A stretch of 64,000 bases of DNA from Citrobacter gillenii. Lineage in GTDB: Bacteria; Pseudomonadota; Gammaproteobacteria; Enterobacterales; Enterobacteriaceae. The DNA is taken from positions 434,001 through 498,000 of the forward strand of contig NZ_SUQN01000002.1 of NCBI RefSeq assembly GCF_013337685.1, given 5' to 3'. How positions within the stretch are numbered: position 1 is the first letter of the stretch; the number at the start of each line of letters is the position of its first letter. Below the pieces are notes generated by a model. It was not told where the DNA came from and made no database searches. It saw nothing but the letters and a program-made list of their open reading frames with translations. Below, one piece after another: positions 20,597 through 27,008 of this stretch. Made by a program: the position numbers and the translations under genes.

Positions 20597-20604
20597 AATG
20601 ACAG

Positions 20605-20645
20605 GTAAAAAACGGGCGGATAGTCTCCGCCCGTTGCTGTTTTTG
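20605..20645. terminator. Bidirectional terminator between chiPQ and the PTS operon
   Basis: Perfect stem AACGGGCGGA (20611-20620) / TCCGCCCGTT (20626-20635). A T-rich run follows on the plus strand and an A run precedes it, so it can serve both convergent operons. Confidence 0.88.
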
Positions 20646-21464
20646 TTAACCCAGAATATTCAAATAGGCACCCAGTATTGATACGACAACGATGCCAATA
20701 AGAATGCGGGAAATTTGGATGTTCTTCCCTAACAGATAATACATTACGCCAAATGCCCCCATCGGTAACAGACACGGCATAATATCGTTTAAAATCTTTT
20801 GTAACGGCACGGCATAAGCACCTTCGCCAATCACAAAGGGAACGTTCAATGAGACCATGGTGGCGGTCATTCCTCCTATGACCATCAGCCCCAATATTGC
20901 CGCACCGTAGGTGATTTTCTGCATCATTCCCGACTCCTCCATTTTTTTGAAGAAATCAGCACCCAGTCGGTAACCGCCCATCAAACAGAAGTAGCGGATA
21001 AAGTAGTGGGGAATGTTAAACACCAGCAGGAACAGTAGCGGTCCCAGAATATTGCCGGATGATGCTAATGAAATCCCCAACCCCGCGGCGATAATACGCA
21101 GCGTTCCCCAGAAGAATGAATCACCAATACCCGCTAATGGACCCATCAGCGATGCCTTCACGGCGTTGATTGAGCTGGCGTCGAAGTCATCGTCGAGCAT
21201 CCGGCGCTCTTCCATGGCTGACGTAATCCCCAGCGGCAGCGTCGACAAGTGAGGCGTGGTATTAAAAAACTCCAAATGCCGGACCAGCGCGTCGGAGATT
21301 TCCTGGTCGGTTTTACACGTTTTACGGATAATGGGCACCATCGAAAAGGTATAACCCATATGCATCATACGCTCATAGTTCCACGACGATTCCATGGTCA
21401 ATGAGCGGAAATAGACGCTCCAGAGATCGCGTTTGGTAATTTTGACATCAGAATTCGTTGTCAT
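20646..21464 (-). CDS. PTS mannose-family transporter EIID
   Basis: Mannose-fructose-sorbose (Man) family membrane subunit EIID, 272 residues. Family features are the N-terminal KITKRDLWSVYFRSLTMESSWNYERM and the GPLAGIGDSFFWGT loop near the middle, plus C-terminal membrane segments. The start MTTNSDVKI follows a GAGG sequence; its 5' end overlaps the EIIC gene by 17 bp, implying translational coupling. It is the last gene of the accessory operon. Substrate unknown. Confidence 0.92.
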   Translation of the reverse strand: MTTNSDVKITKRDLWSVYFRSLTMESSWNYERMMHMGYTFSMVPIIRKTCKTDQEISDALVRHLEFFNTTPHLSTLPLGITSAMEERRMLDDDFDASSINAVKASLMGPLAGIGDSFFWGTLRIIAAGLGISLASSGNILGPLLFLLVFNIPHYFIRYFCLMGGYRLGADFFKKMEESGMMQKITYGAAILGLMVIGGMTATMVSLNVPFVIGEGAYAVPLQKILNDIMPCLLPMGAFGVMYYLLGKNIQISRILIGIVVVSILGAYLNILG

Positions 21465-22209
21465 CGATGACCTCTTGTTTTTTTGCTTCGTTATTAACGA
21501 GTACGATTGCGAGGAACAGGCCAAACAGGGCGATCCCGACCAGCGGTAGTTTTAAATATGCCGCTAGTAGAAAACCAAAGAAGAAATAGGGGAATACTTT
21601 TTTGTTGATGATCATTCTCGCCAGCATGGCAAAACCGAGCGCCGGTAAGATGCCCGTGGCGATAGTCATTCCCGTCATAATATCTTTGGGGATCGATTCG
21701 AGAATGGCATTAACCACCGGCGTCCCAACATAAAAAGCAAAACCAACCAGAATCGCAAACGGCACGGAACAGGCGAGGGTAGAGTAAATATGCATGCGGA
21801 CCACGCCGCTGATATTGGCATTTAACGCATGTTTGTCTGCGCGACGGCAAAATATCGGCAAGACAAAGATATACACGGCGTTTTGTAATACCAATACCAA
21901 CGTAGCAATAGGTACCGCAAGAGCTACGGCAGTGGCCACGTTTTGCCCAGAGGCAATGGCAAAGGCGGTGCCTAAAATACCGCCAGACGTCACATCAGGG
22001 GGATTAGATGCGCCAATCTGGAATGCGCCTAACAGCACAAGTTCAATGGCCGAACCAATAATGATGCCATTGGTGAGATCGCCCATAATTAGCCCCACCA
22101 ACGGCCCCATTACGATCGGACGTCGGAGCATGGCGGTACCGAAGATGGAGTCCAGGTAACCGACACAGGATAAACCACCCAATAAAAAGGATTGCATTAG
22201 TAAGCTCAT
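21448..22209 (-). CDS. PTS mannose-family transporter EIIC
   Basis: Polytopic EIIC of the Man family, 253 residues, with GLIMGDLTNGIIIGSAIEL and many hydrophobic segments typical of the transport domain. The ATG at 22209 is preferred because GAGG lies eight bases upstream; a GTG six bases earlier (22215) is too close to it. Forms the channel with EIID. Confidence 0.92.
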   Translation of the reverse strand: MSLLMQSFLLGGLSCVGYLDSIFGTAMLRRPIVMGPLVGLIMGDLTNGIIIGSAIELVLLGAFQIGASNPPDVTSGGILGTAFAIASGQNVATAVALAVPIATLVLVLQNAVYIFVLPIFCRRADKHALNANISGVVRMHIYSTLACSVPFAILVGFAFYVGTPVVNAILESIPKDIMTGMTIATGILPALGFAMLARMIINKKVFPYFFFGFLLAAYLKLPLVGIALFGLFLAIVLVNNEAKKQEVIDDNEF

Positions 22210-22219
22210 ATCCACTACC

Positions 22220-22693
22220 TCATCCCAGTAAGGCGATAGCTTTCAGTCGGGTATCGTTCGGTACTTGCCTGATCTCAAGTTCGACACCTTTGTTATCCAG
22301 TTCTTTTAATTGTGTAACGTCGTGGTCGGTAATAAATATGGCTTTTGATATTTGACGCGTGCCCGGTGCAGATTTAATCCCACCCAGATTGATACTGACA
22401 ATTTTTTCGTATTCCATTGCCAACGCGTGTGCATCATTAATCGATGCAACAACAATAAAGAGGTTATATTTTTCTGTCGCGCCGCTTTGTAAGGCTTTGA
22501 TCGAATCTGCAATATTTTTAATAACCAATTTAACGTTATTCGGTCGCGCCAGGCGCATGGCCGTCATTTTTAACTCATCATTGATGATGTCATCATTGGC
22601 AATAAGAATGCAATCGGCCTGCAGCGCCGCAGTCCAGGCAAAAGCTACCTGGCCATGTAATAAGCGATGGTCTACACGTAATAATTTAATCAT
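22220..22693 (-). CDS. PTS mannose-family EIIB
   Basis: A cytosolic phosphocarrier of 157 residues. The Man-family phospho-His is His13 in VDHRLLHGQVAFAW. It receives phosphate from EIIA His9 and donates it to the sugar bound by EIIC/EIID. Its start overlaps the btpA-like stop by 8 bp. Confidence 0.94.
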   Translation of the reverse strand: MIKLLRVDHRLLHGQVAFAWTAALQADCILIANDDIINDELKMTAMRLARPNNVKLVIKNIADSIKALQSGATEKYNLFIVVASINDAHALAMEYEKIVSINLGGIKSAPGTRQISKAIFITDHDVTQLKELDNKGVELEIRQVPNDTRLKAIALLG

Positions 22694-23417
22694 TTTGTTT
22701 AACCTTTTGCATTAGCTGTGAAACGTGTTCGGCACAGACATCGCCGGTGTCTTTATAGGTATCTTTGAAATAACTTCCTACCACTGCACCTGAACCCATG
22801 GTCAACTGATGCTGACAATTGTCGAGGGTGATCCCGGCACCAATAATTAATGGAAAGTCACCAATGATGGCCCTGAATTCGCGGATTTTATCTTCATCTG
22901 TTTCCTGTCCGGTGGCATCACCGGTGACGACAATGGCGTCACAGCGTTGCATCCCTAGCGTCAGGTCTTCCTGCAAGCTGCGTCCAGATTTGTAGGGTTG
23001 ATACTTGAAACGTACACCACCGAATACGGCAAAAGAAGCATTGCGACGATTTTCCTCAATAAATTGGGCAAATGAGAGGTCTTCATCGAGAGGCAAATGT
23101 CCGGCAACAGAATCTAACTGGATAAAGCTGGCGTGATATTTTTTGGCTAACTCAAACCCTTTCTTATCATCGTCTAACAGATTGACGCCGTAGGTAATAC
23201 CCGGTTGAGTGCTGTCGAGGTAATGCAGCACGCTTTCAACTTGTGCAGGGGTGCCAAAATAGTTTTCAACAATCACCGCATCTACGCCATTTTGTTGATA
23301 GATAGCGATCTCTTTTTTTGCATTTTCGAGGACATCACGGTCGTTTTCACCTTTCAAATGCAGCATGGCAAGAATGAATTTATTGTCACCAAATAACGTT
23401 TCAACTTTATTTTTCAT
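22686..23417 (-). CDS. BtpA/SgcQ-family TIM-barrel protein
   Basis: A 243-residue soluble protein of the BtpA (photosystem I biogenesis) / SgcQ family. Visible are repeats of beta-alpha units: FILAMLHLKGENDRDVLENA, GVDAVIVENYFG, DAIVVTGDATGQETDEDK and FPLIIGAGITLDNC, the last resembling a phosphate-binding end of a barrel. The start at 23417 is chosen because AGGAG precedes it by 6 nt; an ATG at 23432 overlaps the EIIA stop. It sits inside the PTS operon between EIIA and EIIB and is the only non-PTS protein there. Substrate and activity are unknown. Confidence 0.85.
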   Translation of the reverse strand: MKNKVETLFGDNKFILAMLHLKGENDRDVLENAKKEIAIYQQNGVDAVIVENYFGTPAQVESVLHYLDSTQPGITYGVNLLDDDKKGFELAKKYHASFIQLDSVAGHLPLDEDLSFAQFIEENRRNASFAVFGGVRFKYQPYKSGRSLQEDLTLGMQRCDAIVVTGDATGQETDEDKIREFRAIIGDFPLIIGAGITLDNCQHQLTMGSGAVVGSYFKDTYKDTGDVCAEHVSQLMQKVKQND

Positions 23418-23431
23418 GTTCGCTCCTGGCA

Positions 23432-23854
23432 TTAAAAATCATCTGATTTTGGGGTGCTGTTGAATAACACATCATTGCAGTACTGGATGGTTTCTTTGGA
23501 TTCCAGAACGGCGGTTCTAATTAGCGCTTGGGTGTCGTCGGTATCGGGGTTTTCCAGAATCAATGCAATCAGTAACGGTAAATTGAGTCCGGTGATTAAA
23601 TGCAGGCGCGGATCGTCAAGATGAGTAATAAACTCGTTAGTCACGCTTCCCTTAGAGATATCGGTGATCACAATGGCTTCATCTTGGCTGCCCAACGTGC
23701 TCATGAATTTTTGTACGCTGAGTTTGATATCAGGCACATCCTCGGTGTAGGCACACAGCGTGGAAATATCTTCATTTTTACCCACGACCATTTCCAGTGA
23801 ATCCCTGATTCCATCAGCAAATCTGCCATGACTGGCGAACAAAAACTTACGCAT
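23432..23854 (-). CDS. PTS mannose-family EIIA
   Basis: A cytosolic EIIA of 140 residues with the phospho-acceptor His9 in LFASHGRFADG and the family strand AIVITDISKGSVTNEF. It is the first gene of the operon, about 60 nt downstream of the predicted sigma-54 start point. The order EIIA-BtpA-EIIB-EIIC-EIID is unlike E. coli manXYZ, where EIIA and EIIB are fused. Confidence 0.93.
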   Translation of the reverse strand: MRKFLFASHGRFADGIRDSLEMVVGKNEDISTLCAYTEDVPDIKLSVQKFMSTLGSQDEAIVITDISKGSVTNEFITHLDDPRLHLITGLNLPLLIALILENPDTDDTQALIRTAVLESKETIQYCNDVLFNSTPKSDDF

Positions 23855-23880
23855 ACCGCTCCATGCTCCACAATGAGTGA

Positions 23881-23897
23881 CGACACTACAGGTGTCG
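23881..23897 (-). other. Leader hairpin of the PTS operon
   Basis: The near-perfect palindrome CGACACTACAGGTGTCG lies between the -12/-24 promoter and the EIIA start, so it would be in the 5' leader RNA. It could be an RNA hairpin or a protein-binding site. Confidence 0.5.
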
Positions 23898-23924
23898 CCA
23901 TAAATGATGAGACTGAATTGAGAT

Positions 23925-23940
23925 AGCAGGAATCATGCCA
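23925..23940 (-). promoter_or_regulatory. Sigma-54 (RpoN) promoter of the PTS operon
   Basis: On the minus strand TGGCATGATTCCTGCT has GG and GC at the -24/-12 spacing of sigma-54 promoters (consensus TGGCAC-N5-TTGCA). The adjacent upstream gene encodes a sigma-54 activator, which strengthens the call. Confidence 0.85.
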
Positions 23941-23968
23941 GCTAATGTCAAAGCGGAAGGAGGTGAGA

Positions 23969-23978
23969 GGGGGGGGGG
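23969..23978. repeat. Ten-G homopolymer
   Basis: An uninterrupted run of ten G between the activator gene and the -24 element. Such tracts are prone to slippage; see findings. Confidence 0.9.
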
Positions 23979-24005
23979 TTAATCCATCATTATGATTTTA
24001 AAGGA

Positions 24006-26732
24006 TTAATTTGATTTTATGATATCGTAAATATAGCCAATTTCGCTGAACGGAATGGTGACACTATAGGTATCTTCTATGACACTAAAGGCATCCTGAA
24101 TCATGCACAGTGTTTCTTTATCACTTTGACTAAGCGTCTGCTGTGCCGGGTAGTTCTCAAGAGGAATCTGACGAATCAAACGTTCCAGCATGCAGCTGGC
24201 ATGGACATACAGGTTAATCTTCGTCTCATTGGCTAAGCGTTTTTTGAGTAATCTTTCGAGAGTACTGATACAGATATCAAGGTGCTCAAGGATTTTTCCG
24301 GTATCCAGAATCGTCAACTGAGCGATGACCCGCTTGAGCGAAAAGTTATGTACCAATCTGTCGTTGATGGTCTGAATCATATCGGTATCAGCAATGCCCT
24401 GGAAAACCGTTTCCAGGCGAACATCACCCCGGCCGCTGATCAGGTCATCCAATGAAATATAGGGAATAAAGGGGATATCCGGATTAGCTGTTCCGACAAC
24501 AGCAATAATGTCATAGAACTGAGACAGTGACTGGCGGGAGGACTCTGAAAGCAGTAGCTGGTGGTCATAGGCGATAACATCCACCCCTGCTTCTTTCGGA
24601 ATACTGTCTTCCAGCAATGTCTGTATTCGCTGCGCCGTACCCATTCCGGTATAGCAGCTGGTAATGATTACTGGACGTTTGACCTGCTCTGAATAGATGA
24701 TTTTACTGTCATTCTTTTGGTAAGAGGTGACGTTCTCAACAATGCTTTCCAGCGGAGCGTTATCTAATAATAACTCACCGACGTGTAGCGCCATTGCCGT
24801 GGAGACATTATTAATAATGGCGACAGGGAAATGGATGCTTTTATTGAACTCAGAGTAAATATCCGTTAACGACCCCATATCTACCAGAATGACCAGCCCA
24901 TTGGACATATCATTATCATTAATGTACTGCAGTATATTACTGGCGATATCTTTGATGGCCGTGTCGATAGGCATATCGAAGGAGGCAAAAAGGGTTTCAC
25001 CCAACATGCGGTTCACGACATTGGCAATACTGCTGGCCGTTGCATAGCCATGTGCCAGAATGACCGCTTTGGTTCGTGGTGCAACGGTCACCATCTTCAT
25101 ACTTTTCAAATATAGCGTGAAGAAAACGTCATCTTCCTGGGTAATCTTGAGATCAAATCGCTGGGCGATCTGTGTTGATAACATACTCGCAATCAGGTTC
25201 TCTTCTGCCAAATGTTGGCTAATATACTGATGTAAATTTTTGAGCGTTTTTTTATGCGCCAGGATGCCGTCATTACCCTGCTTATTTTTAGTAAATAAAT
25301 ACCATGCTAAGCCGTACAGTCGATTACCGTTAAATTGGACCGAATGTTTGCTTTCTATCTGCTGAACAATATCCTGGATAGTATTGAGATGTGAATAAAT
25401 GGCCGGGTGATCGTTTTGTGCCGTTGGGTTAAATATGATCTTATCGAACAGCGTATCGATTTCACGAGAGACTTCTGGGAGCAGTACATTTTCGCTATTT
25501 TGCTGAAACAGGCTGAAGATCTTATCCCAGAATTCACTAATAAAATGGTTCAACGGTACTACAGGGAGAACCAATTGCTGTAGCGTCATCGAAGGGGTAA
25601 ATACGACAGCGGTTCCTACAACCTGGTGATTAATTTGCACACCATGCGGCATAAAGCTGTCTGGTAGATCGTCTAAGTGTAAAGAGAGGCACTGATCTGC
25701 TTGAGACTTTGCAAAACGCGTGGCACTCAGGCAGGTGATGGTATTTTTTAATTCACCGATATTTCCGCTGTAGATGTGTCGTTTTAAGACGTTCAGCACC
25801 TGTGGGGACAGTTTGATATTGCGCTTGAGCAGTTTCGACTCATGCAGGAAAAAGGCATAAATAAACTGGATTTTTTCCGCTTCACCGCGCTGTTCCAACG
25901 AAGGAATGGCAATATTCAGCGGGATACGACGTATAAACGTTTCCAGAAAATACTCTTTGGGCGAGACGGTTGTGGCGAAAACCAGTCTGACCTGAGCGCT
26001 GATTTCTTTTTCGCTTTCCCCCATGCGACGAAAACGCCCGGTATCCATAAAGGTGAATAACTTTTCCTGACCCTCCGGATGTAAGCGGTGGATCTCATCC
26101 AGAAATAGCACCCCTCCATCGGCTTTTTGCAGAAGTCCTTCGCTGGTTTTATCTGCCCCTGTAAATGCACCTTTGATATAGCCAAAGAGGTGACTCGAAA
26201 GTAATTCAGGGTTGTTGGCATATTGAGCACAATTGAACGCAATAAATGGCGCGGTGGGGGGCAGGATTTTCTTCTCCACAGCTCGCTGCCAGGATAATTG
26301 TGCCAGCATGCTCTTACCGCTGCCGGTCGGGCCATACAGCATTACTGACAGACCGTGAGGGGGATAACAGATCGCGGTATTCAATTTTTCTATAACGGGG
26401 ACTAAACTTCCCTGGGAACCGATCAATCCGGCAAACGTGTCTTGTTGTTTATATTGATGCTTTTTTAGCTCAGCGGCGCCTGAGAAGACGGACTGACTGA
26501 CACGAAAAAACTGTTCTTCAAAAACGGCTTTGTGCAGAAAATAGACGGGCCGGGTATTCAGTTTTATGACCAGATTATCGTCAATGAGCTGATTCAGATA
26601 GTGGCTGATGGTATTACGCTTCACATTGAAGTGTTCTGCCATCGTTTGGGCCGTATGAAAGTCGTCCAGCGAGTCAAAAGAAAAATGACGGGTCTCTTCT
26701 GCCAAAAATGCAAAGATCTCTTCTTTTAACAC
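24006..26732 (-). CDS. LevR-type sigma-54 activator with PRD and PTS domains
   Basis: A 908-residue transcription activator. N-terminal winged HTH (about 1-65); AAA+ domain with Walker A GPTGSGKS (134-141), the sigma-54 contact motif GAFTGA (188-193) and Walker B VLFLDEI (208-214); then PRD1 (about 395-500), an EIIA-Man-like domain with His561 (ILAHGYATASS), an EIIB-like domain with Cys693 (TSCYTGMG) and PRD2 with His844 (LYVHASCMLERL). PTS phosphorylation of these sites usually signals sugar availability. It is directly upstream of, and codirectional with, the PTS operon it presumably controls. Related to LevR/DgaR/GfrR regulators; the inducer is unknown. Confidence 0.93.
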   Translation of the reverse strand: MLKEEIFAFLAEETRHFSFDSLDDFHTAQTMAEHFNVKRNTISHYLNQLIDDNLVIKLNTRPVYFLHKAVFEEQFFRVSQSVFSGAAELKKHQYKQQDTFAGLIGSQGSLVPVIEKLNTAICYPPHGLSVMLYGPTGSGKSMLAQLSWQRAVEKKILPPTAPFIAFNCAQYANNPELLSSHLFGYIKGAFTGADKTSEGLLQKADGGVLFLDEIHRLHPEGQEKLFTFMDTGRFRRMGESEKEISAQVRLVFATTVSPKEYFLETFIRRIPLNIAIPSLEQRGEAEKIQFIYAFFLHESKLLKRNIKLSPQVLNVLKRHIYSGNIGELKNTITCLSATRFAKSQADQCLSLHLDDLPDSFMPHGVQINHQVVGTAVVFTPSMTLQQLVLPVVPLNHFISEFWDKIFSLFQQNSENVLLPEVSREIDTLFDKIIFNPTAQNDHPAIYSHLNTIQDIVQQIESKHSVQFNGNRLYGLAWYLFTKNKQGNDGILAHKKTLKNLHQYISQHLAEENLIASMLSTQIAQRFDLKITQEDDVFFTLYLKSMKMVTVAPRTKAVILAHGYATASSIANVVNRMLGETLFASFDMPIDTAIKDIASNILQYINDNDMSNGLVILVDMGSLTDIYSEFNKSIHFPVAIINNVSTAMALHVGELLLDNAPLESIVENVTSYQKNDSKIIYSEQVKRPVIITSCYTGMGTAQRIQTLLEDSIPKEAGVDVIAYDHQLLLSESSRQSLSQFYDIIAVVGTANPDIPFIPYISLDDLISGRGDVRLETVFQGIADTDMIQTINDRLVHNFSLKRVIAQLTILDTGKILEHLDICISTLERLLKKRLANETKINLYVHASCMLERLIRQIPLENYPAQQTLSQSDKETLCMIQDAFSVIEDTYSVTIPFSEIGYIYDIIKSN

Positions 26733-26966
26733 CGTGAGCCTCTTAACTGTTCCATGCGGGTTCTAACGTCTGGTGCGCATATAAAAGTAACAAAAATAAA
26801 ATGTTGTGGGACATAATGGCTCATTTGGAGTTTTTGAGTCATCACGTTTTCTACGCGTGTTATTTTGATTTAGCCGCGGGGGAGGTTATCACATTTTGCG
26901 GATAGTCGGCGGATGGTTGGCGGTGATTGTGACTATTTCGTACTTAAATTTTACTGATACGTTAAT

Positions 26967-26990
26967 CCCCGGCTCAACGTTGAGCGGGGG
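26967..26990. terminator. Hairpin downstream of fur (possible terminator)
   Basis: CCCC and GGGG arms surround the palindrome GCTCAACGTTGAGC, about 20 bp after the fur stop. No T run follows, so intrinsic termination is uncertain. Confidence 0.45.
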
Positions 26991-27008
26991 ACTGACGTGA
27001 TTCAAAAC

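Follow-up and report, generated by a model that had tools for sequence, protein, structure and literature searches.

A 64,000-nucleotide stretch of the Citrobacter gillenii genome (contig NZ_SUQN01000002.1, positions 434,001 to 498,000), referred to here as the window, carries an operon in which the components of a mannose-family phosphotransferase system (PTS) are encoded together with a protein of the BtpA/SgcQ family (Table 1). The operon type is real and conserved, and comparison of gene sets suggests that the BtpA protein is an enzyme of a catabolic kind that depends on phosphorylation by a PTS or by a kinase.

Table 1. Positions of the operon genes and control features in the window
Feature	Position	Strand	Support
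EIID, mannose-family PTS	20646..21464	-	PF03613, 337.1 bits; ATG at 21464, open reading frame open from 21524
EIIC, mannose-family PTS	21448..22215	-	PF03609 (EII-Sor), 243.7 bits
EIIB, mannose-family PTS	22220..22693	-	PF03830 (PTSIIB_sorb), 159.7 bits
BtpA/SgcQ-family protein, own subfamily; predicted TIM barrel; candidate enzyme	22686..23417	-	PF03437, 86.5 bits; pLDDT 90.4
EIIA, mannose-family PTS, SHG motif	23432..23854	-	PF03610 (EIIA-man), 52.8 bits
Sigma-54-type -24/-12 element TGGCATGATTCCTGCT	23925..23940	-	Before the EIIA gene, between activator and EIIA
LevR-like sigma-54-dependent activator, 908 amino acids, GTG start	24006..26732	-	Pfam domains
Inverted repeat and T run	20611..20635		Just past EIID; terminator-like on both strands

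The operon and its control region

All five genes, in the order EIIA-BtpA-EIIB-EIIC-EIID, were confirmed on the minus strand, and each product scores above its curated Pfam cut-off, the EIIA, EIIB, EIIC and EIID of a mannose-family PTS standing in one operon. A first-pass annotation, made from the sequence alone, was upheld in part. The gene order, tight packing and overlaps of 8 and 17 bases that it described are borne out by coordinates and Pfam matches, the shorter overlap lying between BtpA and EIIB (22686-22693) and the longer between EIIC and EIID if EIID starts at the ATG at 21464. Its limits for the BtpA gene also stand, with the start at an ATG at 23417 behind the ribosome site AGGAG, in an open reading frame (ORF) that opens 15 bases earlier; the activator and the -24/-12 element had escaped it. 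The SHG motif of EIIA presumably holds the phosphorylated histidine. The stricter NCBIfam cut-offs for the mannose/fructose/sorbose subfamily were not reached (score/cut-off: EIIA 50/98, EIIB 115/164, EIIC 164/340, EIID 257/293), nor were those of the galactosamine (aga) equivalogs (EIIB 98/180, EIIC 187/300, EIID 185/400), and by these profiles the PTS is a divergent set within the Pfam families. Buttiauxella (locus L005; locus and genome numbers are our own) carries the same six genes at 72-93% identity, so the arrangement is not a product of chance.

The activator has a LevR-like architecture, a sigma-54 AAA domain (Sigma54_activat, PF00158, 136 bits) followed in the C-terminal part by an EIIA-man domain (PF03610, 30 bits) and a PRD (PF00874, 53 bits), and it is 72% identical to the Buttiauxella copy. 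One PRD is recognized, where the available text of PMC4987338 leads one to expect two in LevR-like activators. Against the DagR equivalog NF047795 the protein scores 538 bits, under the cut-off of 1400.

A relaxed -24/-12 pattern, written to fit TGGCATGATTCCTGCT, matches once in the window against 0.22 expected, and a stricter consensus with 2 mismatches allowed is not enriched there (41 found, 43.8 expected); the support for the element is therefore comparative. In a scan of three fetched LevR loci, the same 16 bases precede EIIA in Buttiauxella, and elements of the form TGGCAC-N5-ATGCG precede EIIA in L008 and L010. An rpoN gene adjoins the Firmicutes operons of L008, L010 and L090. Sigma-70 promoters showed no excess over shuffled sequence. 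Inverted repeats with a T run numbered 4 against 6.4 expected, and the one just past EIID owes its support to its position only.

The BtpA subfamily, its fold and its distribution

The window BtpA protein is well within PF03437 (cut-off 30 bits) and misses both NCBIfam profiles of the family, scoring 83.8 bits against a cut-off of 153.4 for TIGR00259 (BtpA/SgcQ subfamily) and 58 bits against 400 for the equivalog NF045918 (photosystem I biogenesis protein BtpA). By sequence, it is a PF03437 member of a separate subfamily outside TIGR00259. In 17 genomes and records this subfamily is sharply bounded, its members scoring at least 287 bits and other BtpA proteins at most 66. Many polar residues are invariant across it, contrary to one outcome that the first-pass annotation had named as fatal to its proposal, while SgcQ and the other family members differ from it at the ends of strands 2, 4 and 5 (15 rows were compared as "other"; they include the subfamily protein of L018 and one duplicate, L018/L047, leaving 13 distinct others).

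The window protein thus has the Pfam family in common with cyanobacterial BtpA and stays outside the equivalog. The first-pass annotation took photosystem I to be the known function of the family, a view now out of date, the available text of a 2024 review (PMC11449065) having redefined the role as support of glutamyl-tRNA reductase and tetrapyrrole synthesis. The same annotation cited SgcQ of E. coli as a protein of the same kind, which the separate subfamily and the different strand-end residues contradict. Orthology with SgcQ was rejected on 26% identity, the TIGR00259 score and these residues; alignment of the subfamily with SgcQ by hhalign gave a probability of 98.6%.

No solved relative of the window protein was found by sequence (best E 0.49). 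The structural model is confident (Table 1), and its nearest solved folds are phosphate-binding TIM barrels, the closest being KDPG aldolase, 3-hexulose-6-phosphate synthase, HisF, TrpA and ribulose-phosphate epimerase. HisF handles an Amadori-type phosphoribulosyl compound, and HisA, TrpF and HisF together demonstrate that Amadori-type chemistry on phosphosugars is possible in this fold class.

A search of 295 genomes of the order for BtpA recovered a close relative in the window's own genome only, two others of the order matching at 27-28% identity, the level of the remaining family, and among 17 genomes of the genus the subfamily is again confined to the window's genome. We take the flanks of the operon to be chiP/chiQ-like and fur/fldA-like genes, named by E. 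coli gene order, and the chiQ-fur interval is variable in the genus (window 20597-27008 compared with L146-L152). In a genome of the same species, L146, the rest of the operon is present, with LevR, EIID and what is left of EIIC almost the same as in the window, and a transposase gene (DDE_Tnp_1, presumably IS5-like; L146:4928-6103) takes the place of everything from the end of EIIA to the first EIIC codons, BtpA and EIIB included. Six other genomes of the genus were opened: L148 and L149 hold about 110 bases at this site, and L147, L150, L151 and L152 about 5 kb of other DNA. The insert of L147, the only one of these that was read, encodes a LysR regulator, an FAD-dependent oxidoreductase, a protein without a Pfam match and an MFS transporter, a set that we take to resemble tricarballylate genes.

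Elsewhere the subfamily was found at 16 loci in public genomes, in 2 of 398 genomes of the phylum of L006 and 5 of 65 of the family of L016 (the centers included in both), and in 21 of 244 genomes of the family of L010, three of them already known. Among plasmids 127 records match; of the matches listed, the first 14 stand at 46-52% identity and the next at about 27%. A copy in E. coli was considered and rejected: the matches in 224 of 5426 genomes cover 4% of the query, and in the single genome opened the match belongs to another PTS beside sorE.

Gene sets that accompany BtpA

Forty-five subfamily loci were fetched and, with the window, 46 were read in detail: 16 from public genomes, 5 of the 14 plasmid records (at least 46% identity, among the 20 of 127 matches listed) and 24 from phylum and family searches, leaving out L001-L004 and loci repeating the same places. 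Neighborhoods reached 8 kb from BtpA, the window flanks included. A PTS is encoded at 26 loci (25 fetched and the window), and 20 have none.

The concern, raised in the first-pass annotation, that the BtpA gene might not be fixed to such operons was not realized: BtpA adjoins EIIB, within 40 bases, in 25 of 25 fetched PTS loci. EIIA, sought with two queries, adjoins in 12 of these and was not found in the cluster in the other 13 (for example L088, L092 and L100), where its gene may lie at another place in the genome; in L093 the locus begins 342 bases from the end of the contig. The search found no EIID in L008, which is cut off by a contig edge. LevR-like regulators occur in L005, L008, L010, L090 and the window and GntR regulators in 19 of the 25 fetched PTS loci, and no regulator was seen in L085 and L093.

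The PTS loci hold no relative of PfkBx, PfkBy, AllA, the isomerase-fold protein described below or FrlA within 8 kb; generic PfkB matches of 24-26% on the other strand in L101 and L102 were not counted. In a Pfam tally of 101 ORFs from 23 loci (L008 and L093 being left without ORFs) no enzyme family recurs beside the PTS operons, none of 133 families exceeding 4 ORFs, in agreement with the first-pass annotation, which saw no kinase, aldolase, isomerase or deaminase beside this PTS. Left out of the tally were ORFs under 160 or over 900 amino acids, those at contig edges or with masked letters, and those already assigned to a transporter, regulator, sigma factor or BtpA.

The 20 non-PTS loci are built differently. 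Their transporters are an FrlA-like permease in 5, an energy-coupling factor (ECF) importer in 7 and an amino-acid-type ATP-binding cassette (ABC) importer in 5; none was recognized in L012 and L080, on short or cut contigs, or in L018, which is neither. A PfkB kinase of one of two locus-specific types (at least 36% identity) is present in 19 of the 20. The corresponding tally of 96 ORFs gave PfkB 22, ureidoglycolate lyase 8, M24 5 (one of them that of L018) and SIS_2 3, against at most 1 PfkB among the 101 ORFs of the PTS tally, where it is not among the families with two or more members. In the non-PTS tally alone, twelve ORFs were removed by hand (eleven in plasmid loci and L096 that appeared to be antisense or wrongly called, and L007:934-2100) and five annotated plasmid-locus genes were added (three AllA-like, two kinases), which favors that set by at most 5.

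The INTERPRETING contrast can thus be stated simply: locus-specific PfkB kinases accompany 0 of 26 PTS loci and 19 of 20 non-PTS loci (Fisher p 4.8e-12, kinship ignored). A PTS phosphorylates its substrate on entry, whereas permeases, ABC and ECF importers do not. Since the kinase is present where the PTS is missing, BtpA appears to work on, or right after, the phosphorylated compound, which strengthens the role on an imported phospho-compound that the first-pass annotation had given it. In a tree of the 46 BtpA proteins, the window and Buttiauxella group with L006, a locus with an FrlA-like permease and a kinase (94/88), and the main Firmicutes PTS clade is separate from this group (98/95), which means that the transporter has been switched more than once.

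Three further proteins recur at the non-PTS loci. An isomerase-fold protein of 380 amino acids, without a Pfam match and not found by an FrlC query, adjoins BtpA in 6 of them and forms a single ORF with it in L006; it is predicted to be a TIM barrel (pLDDT 81.9, from 4 sequences) with UlaE (a 3-epimerase), endonuclease IV and xylose isomerases as its nearest folds, and FrlC (PF01261) belongs to the same fold class. Eleven of the 20 loci have an AllA-like gene (in L015 a 48-residue piece only; the L014 type is 52% identical to that of L011). In L021-L025 the gene that separates BtpA from the PfkB kinase is annotated "ureidoglycolate lyase", and the annotated stretches contain no further allantoin gene. 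The match of the L021 protein to ureidoglycolate hydrolases of known structure is weak (E 4e-6), and the annotated function is open to doubt. In 5 of the 7 ECF loci (L095-L099) the gene right behind BtpA encodes an M24 peptidase-like protein, and L018 has an M24 protein about 3 kb from BtpA on the other strand (L018:13695-14402). Downstream of the ECF/BtpA cluster of L095 lie a mannose-type EIIA-like ORF and three SIS_2 ORFs (L095:11163-13828). These SIS_2 ORFs were considered as reserve deglycases and set aside: they make up all three of the non-PTS tally, and SIS_2 does not reach two members in the PTS tally. A match to an FrlR-like GntR regulator was found in 31 of the 45 fetched loci, GntR regulators being common.

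The reaction proposed for BtpA and its alternatives

The transporters point to a substrate class. In the available text of PMC12675984 and PMC4987338, the gfr system is a mannose-family PTS with a LevR-type sigma-54 activator that imports fructoselysine and glucoselysine. The FrlA-like permeases of 5 BtpA loci are 53-56% identical to the E. coli fructoselysine transporter FrlA, that of L011 scoring 572 bits against the FrlA model NF008466, under its cut-off of 800. An amino-acid-type ABC importer is present in 5 of 5 plasmid loci opened and is annotated as an amino acid importer (Shinella, Ensifer, Antarctobacter, Roseateles) beside GntR, BtpA, "ureidoglycolate lyase" and "carbohydrate kinase". 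The deoxyfructosyl-glutamine importer of Agrobacterium is an ABC system that serves a glycated amino acid. Glycated amino acids are proposed as the substrates because this class is served by FrlA, Gfr and ABC importers alike; the first-pass annotation had placed Amadori compounds on its test panel and had not reached this reading.

The deglycase FrlB and BtpA alternate. No FrlB match was found in the 45 fetched BtpA loci or the window flanks, and in 7 FrlA control loci and E. coli K-12 (11-18 kb fetched) FrlB always stands beside FrlA, with no BtpA match. All 13 FrlA-type loci therefore carry exactly one of the two, FrlB in 8 and BtpA in 5, and never both; the five BtpA/FrlA loci were found through BtpA, so the count says nothing of frequency and the exclusion is the point. 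Among 42 genomes and records searched for FrlB, 25 match at 1e-10, G390 at 52% and 24 others at 21-31%; G390 has FrlA and FrlB and no BtpA match in the phylum search, and the window's genome has no FrlB match at 1e-10.

These observations suggest that BtpA acts on the phosphorylated uptake product, most likely cleaving a phosphorylated glycated amino acid of the Amadori type in place of deglycases such as FrlB, GfrE and GfrF, a reading to which we give a probability of about one half. The PTS, under LevR and sigma-54 control, would import and phosphorylate an unusual sugar compound, likely a sugar joined to an amino acid. The TIM barrel of BtpA would hold the substrate phosphate at the loops after strands 7 and 8 (GAG 198-200, GS 219-220), and a conserved acid-base set at the ends of strands 1, 2, 4 and 5 (H25, E56, D107, H112, R141, K143) would break the sugar-nitrogen link. 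BtpA might enolize a 1-amino-1-deoxyketose or form its imine, hydrolysis then yielding the free amino acid and a hexose phosphate that would enter glycolysis. BtpA would have the role that FrlB and GfrE/GfrF play in the frl and gfr pathways. More tentatively, and rather doubtfully, the subfamily may represent a second class of phospho-Amadori (phosphofructosamine) deglycase, one built as a TIM barrel that has no relation to the SIS deglycases and takes their place in PTS, permease, ABC and ECF pathways across several phyla, and the wider BtpA/SgcQ family, sgc included, may use related chemistry on phosphorylated nitrogen-linked sugars.

Several results weigh against cleavage of a glycated amino acid. 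The ABC binding protein is nearest to glutamine-type binders and did not identify the ABC substrate; deoxyfructosyl-amino-acid binders stand far down the list, and the match to the Agrobacterium importer is a distant one. The BtpA-linked FrlA-like permeases form a branch of their own (100/99), and the substrate may therefore differ from fructoselysine itself. PfkBy is nearer to ribokinase than to FrlD, L018 has no recognized transporter or kinase, and the pathway leaves unexplained both the AllA-like cupins seen in 11 of the 20 non-PTS loci and the M24 peptidase-like proteins that 5 of the 7 ECF loci encode. Distant SIS-type matches (21-31%) occur somewhere in 24 of 41 further genomes and records, and the three SIS_2 ORFs of L095 lie 1.4-3.6 kb past BtpA. 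Profile comparison of BtpA with HisF, HisA and UlaD, made to place the phosphate site, was not significant; the HisF alignment, likewise not significant, is confined to BtpA residues 169-234, where the loops that follow strands 7 and 8 line up. Finally, the tree offers 2 independent pairs of PTS and non-PTS loci on starred branches and 3 on all branches, too few for the kinase contrast to become significant when kinship is taken into account.

The best-placed alternative, which we regard as unlikely though not by much more than the generalization above, is that BtpA acts on a phosphorylated import product other than a glycated amino acid, for example as an aldolase, decarboxylase or epimerase of a phosphorylated sugar acid or amino sugar. 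The solved folds closest to the model include enzymes of just these kinds, PfkBy is ribokinase-like, and in the available text of PMC4987338 D-glucosaminate (dga) is another substrate taken up by a mannose-family PTS under a LevR-type activator. Such an enzyme would leave unexplained both the FrlA-type permease and amino-acid-type ABC importers of the relatives and the alternation of FrlB with BtpA. Much less likely is the cleavage of another nitrogen-linked sugar (a glycosylamine, or a ureido or nucleoside-like conjugate), in which the AllA-like cupin would open an intermediate of carbinolamine type. The ribokinase-like PfkBy and the separate permease branch would fit this as well, and AllA-like genes, of the ureidoglycolate lyase family, are found in 5 of 5 ABC loci opened and 4 of 5 FrlA-like loci; none, however, matches within 8 kb in the 25 fetched PTS loci or in the window, so the AllA-like step lies outside the common core. 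Least likely is a regulator or chaperone of the PTS, as its constant place beside EIIB, the stabilization of glutamyl-tRNA reductase by cyanobacterial BtpA (available text of PMC11449065) and the PTS-chaperone-like features credited to SgcQ (available text of PMC13343008) might suggest, for the same subfamily with its invariant polar residues accompanies ABC, ECF and FrlA-like systems without PTS parts, is a single ORF with the isomerase-fold protein in L006, and stands beside PTS operons where no other enzyme family recurs.

If phosphorylated glycated amino acids are indeed the substrates of BtpA, a second protein fold would take part in their breakdown, a job so far credited to another protein family, and such pathways would become recognizable in gut Firmicutes, Collinsella, rhizobia and enterobacteria, where annotation now offers only "BtpA/SgcQ family protein" and "ureidoglycolate lyase". 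The gene sets suggest which class of reaction and which substrates to try, and the protein itself is small and, by its model, should fold well.

Comparison with known systems

The gfrABCDEF/GfrR system of Salmonella resembles the window operon in its mannose-family EIIA, EIIB, EIIC and EIID, its LevR-like sigma-54 activator and its sigma-54-dependent transcription (available text of PMC12675984 and PMC4987338), a likeness of architecture. It differs in having two deglycase genes, gfrE and gfrF, where the PTS genes of the window have a single companion, the BtpA gene placed between those of EIIA and EIIB. The frlABCDR system of E. coli shares with the loci of the BtpA relatives the FrlA-like permease, the PfkB kinase, the FrlR-like GntR regulator and the isomerase-fold protein, but has FrlB where the 45 fetched loci have BtpA, and its permeases stand on a separate branch. 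GfrE and GfrF have the SIS fold. For a mutant of another deglycase gene, fraB, the abstract of PMC4941530 reports that a phosphorylated intermediate is toxic. Phosphorylation by a PTS or PfkB kinase is thus, by gene content, common to these systems and the BtpA loci; because the SIS deglycase gene in the cluster is missing, the window operon is not filed as a frl or gfr system.

The sgcABCEQX operon of E. coli likewise encodes a PF03437 protein with a PTS, but the PTS is of another family and the BtpA of another subfamily. The available text of PMC13343008 (2026) leaves this operon without a substrate, sgc mutants having no growth defect on 190 carbon sources. In the open-licence literature, among the matches listed, the BtpA/SgcQ family appears only with its cyanobacterial tetrapyrrole role and with no enzymatic reaction, and none of the listed papers on BtpA together with a phosphotransferase system or a carbohydrate kinase is, to judge by title and abstract, on this subject; no paper there treats BtpA and Amadori together.

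Two neighborhoods have unusual members. In a Bacteroidales bin the genes for BtpA and the FrlA-like permease are separated by an ADP-ribosyltransferase-like ORF (L007:934-2100), and a Haloferax plasmid (L028:6992-8734) has a BtpA gene of the wider family next to one for a carbohydrate kinase, the two being on opposite strands.

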